The translations under genes and the position numbers were made by a program. DNA of 64,000 nucleotides, from assembly GCF_015751765.1 (NCBI RefSeq), contig NZ_JADOTX010000001.1:5022001-5086000 (forward strand), given 5' to 3'. The notes beneath the pieces are model-generated. The model made no database searches, was not told the DNA's origin, and was given only the letters and a program-made list of their open reading frames with translations. Source of the DNA: Micromonospora ureilytica (GTDB lineage Bacteria; Actinomycetota; Actinomycetes; Mycobacteriales; Micromonosporaceae). Positions 52,025 to 57,585 of this stretch are shown piece after piece. Every line of letters starts with the position of its first letter. Within the stretch, counting starts at the first letter, position 1.

Positions 52025-52307
52025 GCGGCGCCGCACTTGCGGAGACATCGCCGGGGCGGCGACCCACTGTCAAACGTGACGAGCCCTTTGCGATGGGTGG
52101 CCCCGGGTGGGCGGGTCCTTCAACACGGTGGCCAGGGCTTATGCGCTTTTTCGTAAGTAAATTCCACTTTCTCCTAAATATACCTATATGACGTCGAAAC
52201 CCCTCTCGACCGGCCAATCAGTCGAATACGCTACGACTCGCCCAGCCGATAACGGCAGGTGACTAGTAGGTAGCTCTGGGTATATCCGGGGTGGCTCTGG
52301 AGGGGTC
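52025..52307 (+). promoter_or_regulatory. AT-rich leader region of the collagen-like operon
   Basis: This 283-nt gap contains no gene. Its part 52135-52200 is conspicuously AT-rich for this genome (TTTTTCGTAAGTAAATTCC, CTAAATATACCTATATGACG), with TATACC and TATATG as possible -10 boxes. GGAGGGG precedes the ATG at 52308. Promoter position cannot be fixed by eye. Confidence 0.4.
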
Positions 52308-54623
52308 ATGAGCAACAACCGACGGCTGCGGCGGCGACTGAACCATGGCCGGGCCGCTTCCGGGCTGAGTTCCGCCCTACTGGTAGTCGGGATGACGGGT
52401 GGGCCCGCAGCCGCAGCGCAACCCGTGGAAGCGAAGCCGTCCGCACAGGACGTGCACGTCGGTACGCCCGGTCCGCTCGGCCAGTACGGCGGGTGGCCCT
52501 CAAGCCTCCTAGCTGTCCGCCAAGACGGCGACGGACCTGACGATTCGTGGGACCAGTACCCCGACGGGCAAACGGACTACGGCCCACAGGGCTGGCAGAG
52601 CCCATGGGGCGGCCACGACAAGGGCAAGGACAAGGGGGGCTACCCGCACGGCAAGCGTGGCCCTCAAGGCCCCCAGGGTGCTCAAGGCGACGCGGGCGCT
52701 CACGGTGCTCAAGGCGCCCAGGGCGACGCAGGTGCGAGAGGCGCGCAGGGCTTCCAAGGCGAGGCGGGCGCGCAAGGCAACACGGGCGCTCAAGGCGCGA
52801 CCGGCGCTCAAGGCGCGACCGGCGCTCAAGGCGACGCAGGCGCGCAGGGCGCTCAAGGCTTCCAAGGCGCGACCGGCGCTCAGGGCTCGCAAGGCGACAC
52901 GGGCGCTCAAGGCGCGACCGGCGCCCAAGGCCCGCAAGGCGACGCGGGCGCCCAAGGCGCTCAGGGCGACACGGGCGCCCAAGGCGCTCAGGGCGACACG
53001 GGCGCACAAGGCGCGACCGGCGCTCAGGGCCCGCAAGGCGACACGGGCGCTCAAGGCGTGACCGGCGCTCAGGGCCCGCAGGGCGACGCAGGCGTCCAGG
53101 GTGCTCAAGGCTTCCAAGGCGCGACCGGCGCCCAAGGCCCGCAGGGCGACGCAGGCGTCCAGGGTGCTCAAGGCTTCCAAGGCGCGACCGGCGCTCAGGG
53201 CTCGCAAGGCGACACGGGCGCTCAGGGCGCGACCGGCGCCCAAGGCCCGCAGGGCGACGCAGGCGTCCAGGGTGCTCAAGGCTTCCAAGGCGCGACCGGC
53301 GCTCAGGGCTCGCAAGGCGACACCGGCGCACAAGGCGCGACCGGCGCCCAAGGCCCGCAAGGCGACACCGGCGCACAAGGCGCGACCGGCGCCCAAGGCC
53401 CGCAAGGCGACACGGGCGCACAAGGCGCGACCGGCGCCCAAGGCCCGCAAGGCGACGCAGGTGTCCAGGGCGCTCAAGGCTTCCAAGGCGTGACCGGCGC
53501 GCAAGGCGACACGGGCGCTCAAGGCCCGCAAGGCGACGCAGGCGCGCAAGGCGCGCAAGGCGCCGCAGGCGTCCAGGGTGCTCAAGGCTTCCAAGGCGCG
53601 ACCGGCGCCCAAGGCTCGCAAGGCGACACGGGCGCGCAAGGCGCGACCGGCGCCCAAGGCCCGCAAGGCGACGCAGGCGCGCAAGGCGCTCAGGGCGACA
53701 CGGGCGCGCAAGGCGCGACCGGCGCCCAAGGCCCGCAAGGCGACGCAGGCGCGCAAGGCGCTCAGGGCGACACGGGCGCTCAGGGCGCGACCGGCGCTCA
53801 AGGCGACACGGGCGCGCAAGGCGCGACCGGCGCCCAAGGCCCGCAAGGCGACACCGGCGCACAAGGCGCGACCGGCGCCCAAGGCCCGCAAGGCGACGCA
53901 GGCGCACAAGGCGCTCAAGGCTTCCAAGGCGCGACCGGCGCTCAAGGCGACACGGGCGCACAAGGCGCGACCGGCGCACAAGGCCCGCAAGGCGACACCG
54001 GCGCTCAAGGCGCGACCGGCGCCCAAGGCGCTCAGGGCGACGCAGGCATCCAGGGCGCCCAAGGCTTTCAAGGCGCCACCGGCGCACAAGGCCCGCAAGG
54101 TGACGCAGGCGCACAAGGCGCTCAAGGGTTCCAAGGTGCACAGGGAGCCCAGGGCGACGCGGGCGCGCAAGGCGCTCAAGGCTTCCAAGGTGCACAGGGA
54201 GCCCCGGGCGACACGGGGGCACAGGGCCCCCAGGGCCTGCAGGGTGCCACGGGCGCCCAAGGGCCCCAGGGCGTGGCGGGCAACGGAATCGAGGCCGCCT
54301 ACATTCAAGGCCCACTGACGGTTATCGCAGACACCCCTGTCGATTTCGGCTGCGAGCCCGGAGACATTGCTGTCGGAACTGGCTATCAACTCTCGGGTGC
54401 AGGCGTCAATCCGGTGCTCATCCAGCCACTCTCGACCAGTGGCTACCAGTTCACCTTTACCGGCGGAGGCGCCGACATCTGGGTGTCCTGCATCTCACTC
54501 GGCACGCCGGTGGCGTTGACAGCTCCGTCCAACACGTCGGGCCGGGCGACGTCCAACAGTAGCGGGGCCGGCCGGCCGGACAGCAGGTCGAAGCGCCCCG
54601 TCGTCGTCGAGGAGGAGAAATGA
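52308..54623 (+). CDS. Secreted collagen-like protein, 180 Gly-X-Y triplets
   Basis: The 771-aa protein has a basic signal peptide ([20 protein letters not shown] to GGPAAAA, cut ~residue 38) and a charged spacer (~39-117). Residues 118-657 are 180 uninterrupted Gly-X-Y triplets, mostly GAQ, GAT, GDT, GDA, GPQ and GFQ. Thr occurs only at Y in the triplets I read, the preferred site for O-glycosylation in bacterial collagens. A C-terminal ~110-residue domain ([20 protein letters not shown], Cys in DFGCEPGD and WVSCISLG) may seed trimerisation, followed by a Ser-rich RPVVVEEEK tail. There is no LPXTG. The stop overlaps the next ATG. Confidence 0.9.
52659..54278 (+). repeat. Gly-X-Y coding repeat tract
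   Basis: 1,620 nt of near-tandem 9-bp/36-aa-scale modules such as [20 protein letters not shown] then [15 protein letters not shown], repeated with silent differences. The module around 53101-53310 recurs almost exactly about three times, so slippage and length variation are expected. Long open frames on both strands here are a by-product of the repeat. Confidence 0.9.
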
Positions 54624-55231
54624 GCATGCGCCAGATATTCGGGTCACTGGCCTGCGGTGCGGTCCTGCTGACCGGAGTCACGGCATGCAGTGACAAGCCT
54701 GCCGAGAAGCCACAGACGAACAACGCCGGCAACAAGACGAACGGCGGCGCCGAGACGCCGGAAGACCTGCTCAAGCTCGGTGTCGAGCAGGGCCAAGCCG
54801 GCAATTTCGACGCGGCGAAGGCAACCTTCGAGAAGCTGCTGGACGCTGAGGCCGACAACAAGTTCGCCTGGTTCAACCTGGGCTACATCGCCCAGTCGCG
54901 CAACCAAGCCGACGAGGCGGTCAGCGCCTACGACAAGGCATTGGCGGCCGACGCCAACTACAAGCCTGCCCTCTACAACAAGGCCATCGCTCTGGAAGGT
55001 AAGGCACCGACCACGTCGATAGACATCTACCGCAAGGTCGTGTCGATCGATGACAAGTCGTCAACTGCCTACCTCCGACTGGGCATGTTGCTGTCCCAGT
55101 CCGGTGAGGAGACGGCGGCGCGGGACGCCTTCAAGGCCGCGATCCGTCTGGACAAGGGGCTCACCTCAGCGGTTCCAGCGAAGTACCGACCGACCCCTAC
55201 CTCTAAGTCCTCGACTCCGGCGGGTAGGTGA
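54620..55231 (+). CDS. TPR lipoprotein
   Basis: The 203-aa protein has a lipoprotein signal ([23 protein letters not shown], lipobox VTAC with Cys ~23), an Asn/Lys/Thr-rich linker, then tetratricopeptide repeats (~48-170): [75 protein letters not shown]. It should be a scaffold on the outer face of the membrane. Its ATG overlaps the collagen-like stop (ATGA) and its stop overlaps the GT-methyltransferase GTG (GTGA). Confidence 0.85.
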
Positions 55232-56505
55232 TCGGCTTCATGCGCGCACCTCGCGTAACGGTCTTCACGGGGAGCAACCGCACCCGTTTCATCGACGAAT
55301 GTTTCGAATCCCTCGTCGCGCAGACCTTCACTGACTGGGAATGGGTGGTCATCCTCAATCAAGGGTCGCGTTGGCGGCCCGAGAGGCACGACGATCGGAT
55401 CCGGCTCATTGTCCAGGACGACCTGAACGGCGTCGGTGCCGTGAAGGGGTACGCCTGCGCCGAGGCTGCCGGGGAAATCCTGGTCGAACTTGACGACGAC
55501 GATCTGCTCAGCAGCGACTGTCTGCAAGAAATAGTCGACGCCTTCGACTCCAACCCGGAGGTGGGGTTCGTCTACAGCGACACCGCGCAGATCCAGGAGG
55601 ACGGCACCCGCTGTGAGGACCGTTTCGCGAGTTCGTTCGGCTGGCGGCACTACGACGACAAGGTAGACGGCCGCGAAGTGCTGGTCTGCCGGGCATTGCC
55701 GCCGACGCCGCACAACGTGAGCTACATCTGGTACGCACCGAACCACGTGCGGGCGTTCCGCCGGGACATCTACGAGAAGGTCGGCGGGTACGACGAGTCG
55801 CTCGACGTCGCGGACGACGCCGATCTCATGGCTCGGATGTACCAGGTGAGCGAGTTCCATCACATCCAGAAATGCCTGTACCTCCAACGCATGCATGCCA
55901 AGAACACGCAGCGCATTCCAGATGTCAACGCTCGCATCCAGCAGCGCACGGTGGAGATCTACGACCGGAACATCCAACATAATGTGCTGGCCTGGTCGCG
56001 ACGGCAGGGACTTATGGCGCTCGACCTGGGCGCCGCTCACAACAAGCCGGAGGGGTACCTCGGCCTGGATTACCACGACGGGCAGGGCGTCGACATTGTT
56101 TGCGACATAACGAAAGGTGTCGACCTGCCGGACAACAGCGTCGGGGTCATTCGGGCGGTGGATTTCCTGGAACACATCCCGGACAAGATCGCGCTGTTCA
56201 ACGAACTGTACCGACTGCTCGCACCGAACGGAATGTTGTTGTCGCTGACCCCCAGCACCGACGGCCGAGGCGCCTACCAGGACCCAACACACGTGGCGTT
56301 CTACAACGAGAACTCCTTCTGGTACTTCACGGACGCCAAATATTCTCGGTTCGTACCTGAAATCACATGCCGGTTCCAGGCGTCGCGGCTGGTCACGTAC
56401 TTCCCGAGTGAATGGCACCAGGCGCACAACATCCCGTACGTCTCGGCGAACCTGATAGCAATCAAGGACGACGCCGTGCGCAACGGTGGCCTGCTGAACA
56501 TCTGA
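55228..56505 (+). CDS. GT2 glycosyltransferase fused to SAM methyltransferase
   Basis: The 425-aa protein has an N-terminal GT-A domain (~1-235): VTVFTGSNRTRFIDECFESL, the DxD region ILVELDDDDLLSSDC, and DIYEKVGGYDESLDVADDAD. The C-terminal methyltransferase-like domain (~265-400) has MALDLGAAHNKPEGYLGLDY, the acidic SAM loop, VIRAVDFLEHIPDKIALFNE and LLAPNGMLLSLTPS. It has no signal peptide, so it acts in the cytoplasm. Plausible job: transfer a sugar to the collagen-like protein or another surface glycan and methylate it. Codon use is less GC-biased (AATATTCTCGG, ATAGCAATC). GTG 55228 sits in a GTGA overlap; ATG 55240 is the alternative. Confidence 0.82.
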   Translation: MIGFMRAPRVTVFTGSNRTRFIDECFESLVAQTFTDWEWVVILNQGSRWRPERHDDRIRLIVQDDLNGVGAVKGYACAEAAGEILVELDDDDLLSSDCLQEIVDAFDSNPEVGFVYSDTAQIQEDGTRCEDRFASSFGWRHYDDKVDGREVLVCRALPPTPHNVSYIWYAPNHVRAFRRDIYEKVGGYDESLDVADDADLMARMYQVSEFHHIQKCLYLQRMHAKNTQRIPDVNARIQQRTVEIYDRNIQHNVLAWSRRQGLMALDLGAAHNKPEGYLGLDYHDGQGVDIVCDITKGVDLPDNSVGVIRAVDFLEHIPDKIALFNELYRLLAPNGMLLSLTPSTDGRGAYQDPTHVAFYNENSFWYFTDAKYSRFVPEITCRFQASRLVTYFPSEWHQAHNIPYVSANLIAIKDDAVRNGGLLNI

Positions 56506-56590
56506 CCATCGCGCGGCGGGCACTACCAGGCGGCGCCCGCCGACCCCTGGGTGGGTGGCCGGGCTGGCCTCCACTACGTACTGTCGTCTC

Positions 56591-56809
56591 GTGGTTGACA
56601 CCGATGAGGCCATCCAGATCGCGATGCGATTCCTGGCCTGTCGCCTCGCTGAGCGTCAGGATCTGCGCGAGCCACCGAGCGTGCAGGGGGTGACCGTCGA
56701 GCAGGTGATGACCGTGACCGGCGAGAGGCCCTGTCACATCGTGAGTTTCGGATGGCCGCTGCGGGTGGCTGTCGATCAGGAAACGGGCGACGCGGACATG
56801 CTGCGGTAA
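56591..56809 (+). CDS. Small protein, 72 aa, unknown
   Basis: The frame VVDTDEAIQIAMRFLACRLA, then ERQDLREPPSVQGVTVEQVM and HIVSFGWPLRVAVDQETGDA-DMLR, has alternating hydrophobic residues consistent with an alpha-beta fold. I recognise no family. GTG 56591 is preferred to an upstream in-frame ATG. It comes 85 nt after the GT-methyltransferase gene and may be in the same unit. Confidence 0.55.
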   Translation: MVDTDEAIQIAMRFLACRLAERQDLREPPSVQGVTVEQVMTVTGERPCHIVSFGWPLRVAVDQETGDADMLR

Positions 56810-56905
56810 GCGATGCCCGTCGGCGGTGGCCGTCCTGGGGATCGGCTACTGGCACGTGGATGGCACGGACCACGCGTTAGGGGATCGAGGCCCTAAGCTG
56901 TCGCG

Positions 56906-57484
56906 GTGCCTGAGCATGACGTGATCGATCTCGACGAGCACAAGCATGTGCCGGCCGAATCGGGTGCCACCTCTACCCGTCGTGCGGTCAAGAAGGCCCA
57001 ACTGCGCCTCATCGCCGCCTTCCTGGTCGGCTTGCTGCTGGGCGGCGTCAGTGTCAACGAGTTGCGAGACCGTCGTGAGCAGCGGGAACGGGCCGCGTCG
57101 GTCGCACTCGTCGTCATACCGGGGGCGGCCCGTACCGACGGCGTCGTTACCGAGGGCGTCGCCGAATTGGACGGGTCGGTGGAAGTGTCCAACTTTGGCC
57201 CTCTGCCGGTCACGATCCGTGCGGTGCAAGCGCAGACATCTGGCGTCCTGATTCAGGACACCGGCCAGTCCCAGTCGCTGCGCCCCGGGAGCACCCGCTG
57301 GCTCGACGTCAAGCTGCGGCTTCAGTGCCCGTCCGAAGTCCGGGACGAGCCGTTGTCGATGCGCATCTCAGTAGAGACAGCCGACAGGAAAGTCAGAGAG
57401 TTCGGCTACCCGGTAGACCTATACCGAAGCGGCTGGCACACCCAGGCTGGGATCCTGTGCTTGGAAGCAGGTCTGGACTGGTGA
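56906..57484 (+). CDS. Single-pass membrane protein of unknown function
   Basis: The 192-aa protein has an N-terminal cytoplasmic tail (~1-35), a TM helix (RLIAAFLVGLLLGGVSVNEL, ~34-52), a short charged linker and an extracellular Ig/beta-sandwich-looking domain (ALVVIPGAARTDGVVTEGVA, VSNFGPLPVTIRAVQAQTSG, STRWLDVKLRLQCPSEVRDE, with two Cys that could pair). The start is GTG. It may belong with the collagen-like operon, but no motif proves that. Confidence 0.6.
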   Translation: MPEHDVIDLDEHKHVPAESGATSTRRAVKKAQLRLIAAFLVGLLLGGVSVNELRDRREQRERAASVALVVIPGAARTDGVVTEGVAELDGSVEVSNFGPLPVTIRAVQAQTSGVLIQDTGQSQSLRPGSTRWLDVKLRLQCPSEVRDEPLSMRISVETADRKVREFGYPVDLYRSGWHTQAGILCLEAGLDW

Positions 57485-57551
57485 GATGTGACAACGGGGC
57501 CAAGGGCTTGAGGGACGTCCGGCGGCGCTGTCGTGGACCTTGGGAAACGGC

Positions 57552-57578
57552 GAAGCCCAGGTCAATGACCTGGGCTTC
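57552..57578 (-). terminator. Hairpin terminator after tRNA-Thr
   Basis: GAAGCCCAGGT (57552-57562) and ACCTGGGCTTC (57568-57578) form a perfect 11-bp stem with a 5-nt loop, directly 3' of the tRNA on the complement. Confidence 0.75.
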
Positions 57579-57585
57579 TGTACCG

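Follow-up and report, generated by a model that had tools for sequence, protein, structure and literature searches.

To our knowledge, bacterial collagens lack hydroxyproline, and their stabilisation and display beyond Bacillus spores and streptococci are poorly known. In the collagen-like protein BclA, Thr-dense Gly-Pro-Thr repeats provide the acceptors for glycosylation, and rhamnose genes presumably lie near bclA in Bacillus. BclA from the exosporium of Bacillus anthracis/cereus is described as a collagen-like protein that forms surface trimers, its collagen-like region being densely glycosylated with GalNAc-Rha-Rha-Rha-Ant (N-acetylgalactosamine, three rhamnoses and anthrose) (PMC10050317). 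Anthrose is methylated at O-2, and A064R of chlorovirus PBCV-1 is a rhamnosyltransferase - rhamnosyltransferase - methyltransferase that methylates O-2 of the terminal L-rhamnose (PMC9614988). Sugar and methyl chemistry of this kind thus has precedents in BclA and A064R (PMC10050317, PMC9614988). The locus considered here lies in a 64,000-nucleotide stretch of Micromonospora ureilytica (the window), a chromosome stretch of a 7.1 Mb genome (G000). Its positions 52308-56505 carry a three-gene cassette that is predicted from its sequence, not proved, to be a glycosylated collagen-like surface protein system.

The open reading frame (ORF) list and the sequence place three overlapping genes in the cassette, encoding a Gly-X-Y protein, a tetratricopeptide repeat (TPR) lipoprotein and a glycosyltransferase-methyltransferase fusion (GT-MT). 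This layout, with 4-base overlaps (ATGA and GTGA) at the two junctions, is as given in the preliminary description. The Gly-X-Y repeat is unbroken as had been claimed, but it counts 182 triplets instead of 180. The claim of an exported Gly-X-Y protein holds for the repeat, through the Pfam Collagen profile and the triplet count, whereas export is suggested by an N-terminus that looks like a signal peptide by eye (Arg-rich n-region, hydrophobic core, AAAA/Q end); relatives of the protein have N-termini that also look export-like by eye. Product 2 agrees with its description as a TPR lipoprotein, with a lipobox V-T-A-C at residues 20-23, read by eye, and TPR_8 matches in three stretches (E 1.3e-15); it scores below the cut-off of at least 25 listed named TPR families, including PilW, PrsT (50.6 vs 312.2), Tgl and NlpI. 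The fusion proposed for product 3 is likewise confirmed, both profiles being above cut-off and the catalytic residues conserved: Glycos_transf_2 (PF00535) scores 45.0 bits against 23.3, Methyltransf_11 (PF08241) 28.3 against 21.2 and Methyltransf_23 (PF13489) 28.7 against 27. D85, D87, D88, D192 and D193 are invariant in 45 aligned GT-MT rows; a DxD-type motif and a later Asp pair are hallmarks of GT2 enzymes of the GT-A fold. The methyltransferase half keeps an invariant DxGxA and a later D in the same 45 rows, a DxGxA-type motif being the S-adenosylmethionine (SAM)-binding motif of class I methyltransferases. The predicted structure of GT-MT has a mean predicted local distance difference test score (pLDDT) of 88.5, and fold comparison gives its glycosyltransferase half a GT-A fold. 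An alternative ATG start of this gene lies at 55240.

That the collagen-like gene and GT-MT form one functional unit is the best-supported claim of this analysis. A scan of actinobacterial genome contigs across the phylum provided the best 80 of 161 GT-MT relatives, all 80 of which were examined, a collagen-like gene being called where 10 or more Gly-X-Y triplets, with at least 8% Gln or Thr, follow one another in the available flank. Such a gene is found in the flank of 75/80 GT-MT loci. The TPR gene stands directly upstream of GT-MT in 55/80 and anywhere in the flank in 58/80, and all three genes are present in 55/80. These loci span Micromonospora, Plantactinospora, Frankia, Streptomyces, Kitasatospora, Agromyces, Acidimicrobiales, Solirubrobacterales and others. 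The possibility that the triplet is conserved nowhere else, which the preliminary description had named as fatal to its proposal, is contradicted by these loci and by 11/61 Micromonospora genomes; the three-gene unit does recur, but it is not strictly of three genes, its core being the collagen and GT-MT pair. Control segments (20 of 20 kb at round coordinates, 6 in G000, 6 in G007 and 8 in Streptomyces G123) held no Gln-rich Gly-X-Y run, so the collagen/GT-MT association exceeds chance; their single run of at least 10 Gly-x-x was Gly/Trp-rich.

Five of the 80 loci have no qualifying collagen run (L052, L060, L067, L078 and L082). In L060, an ORF flanked by RmlB and RmlC has a run of 7 triplets, and a contig edge lies at most 1.1 kb away on one side in L052, L078 and L082. 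A separate even draw found GT-MT in 6/396 actinobacterial genomes at E 1e-40, which makes it rare, the match in G347 covering the methyltransferase half alone. Among the five full-length copies of this draw, those of the window, L193, L195 and L198 have a collagen-like gene close by; the fifth, L194, shows none in the 10.7 kb examined, which reach 0.4 kb beyond GT-MT on its upstream side, and its contig appears to be that of L078, both being 14,186 bases long. Searching the phylum with PF01391 at E 1e-9 proved too strict, as the window's gene was missed and a different Gly-X-Y protein from its genome was scored.

Within Micromonospora, a full-length GT-MT (E <1e-230) occurs in 11/61 genomes, carriers that are kin and whose counts are not independent; the best match in the remaining 50 is partial, at E 1e-15 or weaker. 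Exactly these 11 genomes also have the TPR gene (E up to 1e-20). Both genes have 12 copies, G029 bearing two cassettes, and 12/12 GT-MT copies are preceded by a Gly-X-Y match, at a distance of about 0.9-1.1 kb. The nearest named GT-MT rows are from Micromonospora, with up to 98% identity. A DNA pattern for Gln runs gave 7-60 matches in each carrier and at most 5 in the other 50 genomes, with a split point chosen after the counts were seen and a backward-pattern control reaching 7 in the non-carrier G033; in carrier G001, one of ten listed matches is at the cassette and eight are on another contig. Given these caveats, the association rests on gene positions rather than on pattern counts. PF01391 genome counts were rejected as a measure: 55/61 Micromonospora match at E 1e-3, but many matches lie on both strands or in Pro/Ser/Thr-rich Gly-X-Y stretches away from the cassette. 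Among the carriers, several are named as plant-associated species (M. trifolii, lupini, phaseoli and endophytica, and Frankia; L029, L034, L036, L040, L046 and others), possibly through kinship.

The cassette occupies a variable stretch (52025-57585) between a methyltransferase gene on the left and a tRNA-Thr(CGT) gene on the right. At the same site, five cassette-less relatives have 115 bp (L264), 1.8-1.9 kb (L265, L268) or 4.6-5.7 kb (L266, L267), with other genes in four of the five, and the methyltransferase/tRNA-Thr stretch is apparently an insertion hot spot. In G007, 1.1 Mb separate the cassette from the right-hand neighbour gene, and in G023 it is on a different contig from both window neighbours. 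These different sites indicate that the three genes move or persist together. At the G023 site (L043, M. chokoriensis), the cassette is beside a different tRNA-Thr, with anticodon TGT (L043:7719-7795).

Glycosylation is strengthened as an idea by the rhamnose genes found around the collagen gene in one part of the GT-MT tree. A clade of 32 Streptomyces loci, in which the collagen gene, where found, is downstream of GT-MT, has at least two of the dTDP-L-rhamnose (dTDP, deoxythymidine diphosphate) genes RmlA, B, C and D in 19/32 loci, and in 13/32 the collagen run has Rml genes on both sides. In L104, the NCBIfam models rmlD, rmlB and rmlA score above cut-off and rmlC just below (147.9 vs 155.75). 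Streptomyces G123, from the separate draw, has the order RmlA-RmlC-collagen-RmlB-RmlD convergent with GT-MT. The 20 control segments gave one RmlC-like match (49% identity) and one RmlB-like match (33%), both in Micromonospora segments.

Action of GT-MT on the collagen-like protein is the simplest reading, as no other gene accompanies GT-MT so constantly as the collagen gene. The cassette is well supported as a unit, which we read as serving to decorate a collagen-like surface fibre; its acceptor, its sugar and the role of the TPR protein we infer. GT-MT would act in the cytoplasm and glycosylate the collagen-like protein, most likely with L-rhamnose taken from dTDP-rhamnose, the acceptor being Thr in Gly-X-Thr where present and otherwise the Ser/Thr-rich C-terminal head. 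The methyltransferase domain would O-methylate the added sugar, and the collagen-like protein would then be exported and trimerise. The TPR protein at the membrane would hold or assemble the fibre, the predicted end product being a surface fibre coated with methyl-sugar. The whole mechanism, in which GT-MT glycosylates and methylates the collagen-like protein and the TPR protein holds or assembles the fibre, is given a probability of about 0.55.

Several observations weigh against this mechanism. The TPR gene was not found in 22/80 loci, some of them with less than 1 kb available upstream; most of these loci belong to Frankia or to one portion of the Streptomyces clade. No collagen-like run accompanies GT-MT in L067 within the 6 kb searched on each side. 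At least two Rml genes occur in the flank of 0/48 loci outside the Streptomyces clade, L034 having a lone RmlD, which makes rhamnose a guess for the window; a search of the window's genome for RmlC found one copy, 2.7 Mb from the cassette. K4 chondroitin polymerase, ahead of RmlT, is the closest match of the GT2 domain, whose fold reveals neither donor nor acceptor. The main difficulty is the composition of the collagens: Ser and Thr together make up 0-5% of the collagen stretch in many Streptomyces-clade members (0% of 126 residues in L088, 1% of 264 in L103). Partners almost without Ser/Thr rule out Thr in Gly-X-Thr as a universal acceptor; they may favour the Ser/Thr-rich head as acceptor, or a polysaccharide as the product. 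As GT-MT shows no signal peptide or transmembrane helix by eye and the TPR protein is anchored outside, contact between them is unlikely, and the TPR protein as a direct partner of the glycosyltransferase is disfavoured by this topology.

The persistence of GT-MT beside Ser/Thr-poor collagens and the nearness of its GT2 domain to K4 chondroitin polymerase also fit another function, in which GT-MT makes a methylated wall or capsule glycan, the collagen head binds or crosslinks this glycan and the TPR protein organises the surface complex. The fold search with the head gives a weak likeness to resistin and PCSK9 C-terminal modules, with H-type lectins lower in the list, which points the same way, as do a PMT_2/GT87-type gene at 3/80 loci and a second GT2 at 8/80; the PMT_2/GT87 neighbour could serve fibre decoration as well as polysaccharide synthesis. 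Such a glycan function is possible but unlikely. More doubtful is a scheme, prompted by the partners almost without Ser/Thr, in which a dedicated cytoplasmic GT-MT of filamentous actinobacteria coats the collagen with O-methylated rhamnose by way of a non-Thr acceptor (Gln, Asp or a head-domain linkage), as a mobile self-contained module.

Confinement of two or more Rml genes to a single clade of 32 loci, and a GT2 donor that is not readable from sequence, would also suit a non-rhamnose sugar on the collagen, or a methyl group placed on the protein rather than on the sugar; the Rml genes of Streptomyces would then be a separate local addition. Against this stands the collagen run found between Rml genes in 13 of these loci, which goes beyond mere vicinity, and we consider such a scheme improbable to much the same degree as the non-Thr acceptor. 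A gathering of genes without shared function at the variable tRNA-Thr-side site could be suspected from the window, where the same stretch ranges from 115 bp to 5.7 kb in the five cassette-less relatives. These genes, however, are also found together at unrelated sites, in further families and classes and as a duplicated cassette, so that an artefact of neighbourhood is very hard to credit.

Membrane anchoring, not lipidation, seems to be the common feature of the TPR proteins: a loose pattern detects a lipobox in 24/60 (apparently falsely in L080, and apparently missing that of L040), whereas 47/60 have a 17-residue N-terminal stretch with mean hydropathy of at least 1.6. In Streptomyces, this hydrophobic stretch is preceded by Arg/Lys, without a convincing lipobox, and these members look transmembrane-anchored rather than lipidated.

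The head domain of the collagen-like protein (about 70 residues) has a C..GGG..P..GW..C pattern in which two Cys and one Gly are invariant among 54 aligned rows. It is predicted to be a six-stranded beta domain, and the window copy has no Pfam match at E 0.1. An ORF elsewhere in the genome (L271, G000:C1:4395399-4396163) has three tandem head domains and an export-like N-terminus, with no Gly-X-Y region. A second Gly-X-Y class, rich in Pro/Ser/Thr (e.g. L121, G000:C1:3511413), exists in Micromonospora with and without the cassette. Draft contigs L029, L030, L036, L039 and L041 start within the collagen repeat, so that the gene is cut short in the assembly. In M. tulbaghiae (L042:6001-7260), a stop codon interrupts GT-MT in frame, at residue 28 of the match, by decay or sequencing error, and N letters lie inside the collagen region.

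Table 1. Features of the cassette, its upstream sequence and glycosyltransferase genes adjoining GT-MT at other loci
Feature	Position	Strand	Basis
Upstream element GTCGAATACGCTACGACTCGCCC	52221..52243	+	Alignment of 7 Micromonospora cassettes
Collagen-like, apparently exported protein, 771 aa	52308..54623	+	ORF; PF01391 E 1.2e-84
Putative signal peptide, approximate boundary	52308..52418	+	By eye; relatives' N-termini similar
182 unbroken Gly-X-Y triplets (Y = Gln 116, Thr 43, Ala 18)	52650..54287	+	Repeat count
C-terminal beta domain, ~71 aa	54288..54500	+	Alignment; model pLDDT 88.1
GAGGAGGAGAA, ribosome-binding-site-like run overlapping the last codons of the collagen gene	54609..54619	+	By eye
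TPR lipoprotein, 203 aa, lipobox VTAC, ~3 TPRs	54620..55231	+	ORF; Pfam; homologues in the same 11/61 genomes as GT-MT
GT2 glycosyltransferase - class I SAM methyltransferase fusion, 425 aa	55228..56505	+	ORF; Pfam; alignment; model
PMT_2/GT87-type neighbour gene	L045:7277-8854
PMT_2/GT87-type neighbour gene	L050:2373-3938
PMT_2/GT87-type neighbour gene	L065:2214-3794

The element GTCGAATACGCTACGACTCGCCC, a possible promoter or operator, is near-identical in five of the seven aligned Micromonospora cassettes (window, L031, L032, L038 and L043), diverged in L034 and absent in L089. A GCCGATAA box at 52245, which we take to be a WhiG-like motif, is the sole exact copy within the window. Control by a sporulation sigma factor was rejected, as a looser form of GCCGATAA, sought within at most 900 bp ahead of the Gly-X-Y region, occurs in 4/52 collagen genes, about the control expectation (0.0975 per kb per strand). 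Membrane glycosyltransferases of the PMT_2/GT87 type, the type having been tested in L045, directly adjoin GT-MT at the loci tabulated, and the second GT2 family has two copies in L104:2070-5111.

No account of a collagen, GT-MT and TPR cassette was found in the open-access literature searched, in which subscription journals are mostly absent. With the collagen and GT-MT pair ranging from Micromonospora to Solirubrobacterales, one candidate enzyme makes collagen glycosylation in actinobacteria directly testable, and a compact collagen-glycosylating enzyme, if true, would be useful for recombinant collagen.

With streptococcal SclB, the cassette protein has a long Gly-X-Y region in common, but its C-terminus shows no LPXTG sorting signal in the sequence. 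It nevertheless scores 343.3 against a cut-off of 325 with the NCBIfam model for the LPXTG-anchored SclB adhesin (NF038329), the best stretch falling within the Gly-X-Y region, and automatic annotation may thus mislabel such genes as SclB adhesins. Listeria RmlT, which acts on wall teichoic acid, and Bacillus SpsA are GT2 enzymes of the GT-A fold like GT-MT, with 11-23% identity, and we know of no methyltransferase domain in either. In A064R, as predicted for GT-MT, a single polypeptide adds both sugar and methyl; A064R has three domains and acts on the viral capsid protein, at its N-glycan. The likeness to BclA is at most one of make-up, both being Gly-X-Y proteins; no Bacillus appears among the best 80 of 161 GT-MT loci, and no search aimed at Bacillus was made. 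The Thr-dense repeats of BclA have no counterpart here: across 5309 triplets of cassette-associated runs, picked for Gln or Thr richness, the Y position is Gln in 64.2% and Thr in 13.6%, and Ser/Thr are nearly absent in several Streptomyces members. Compared with BclA, the cassette is actinobacterial, with a head domain not assigned to a family, Gln-rich repeats, an anchored TPR protein, and a glycosyltransferase and a methyltransferase fused in one protein.

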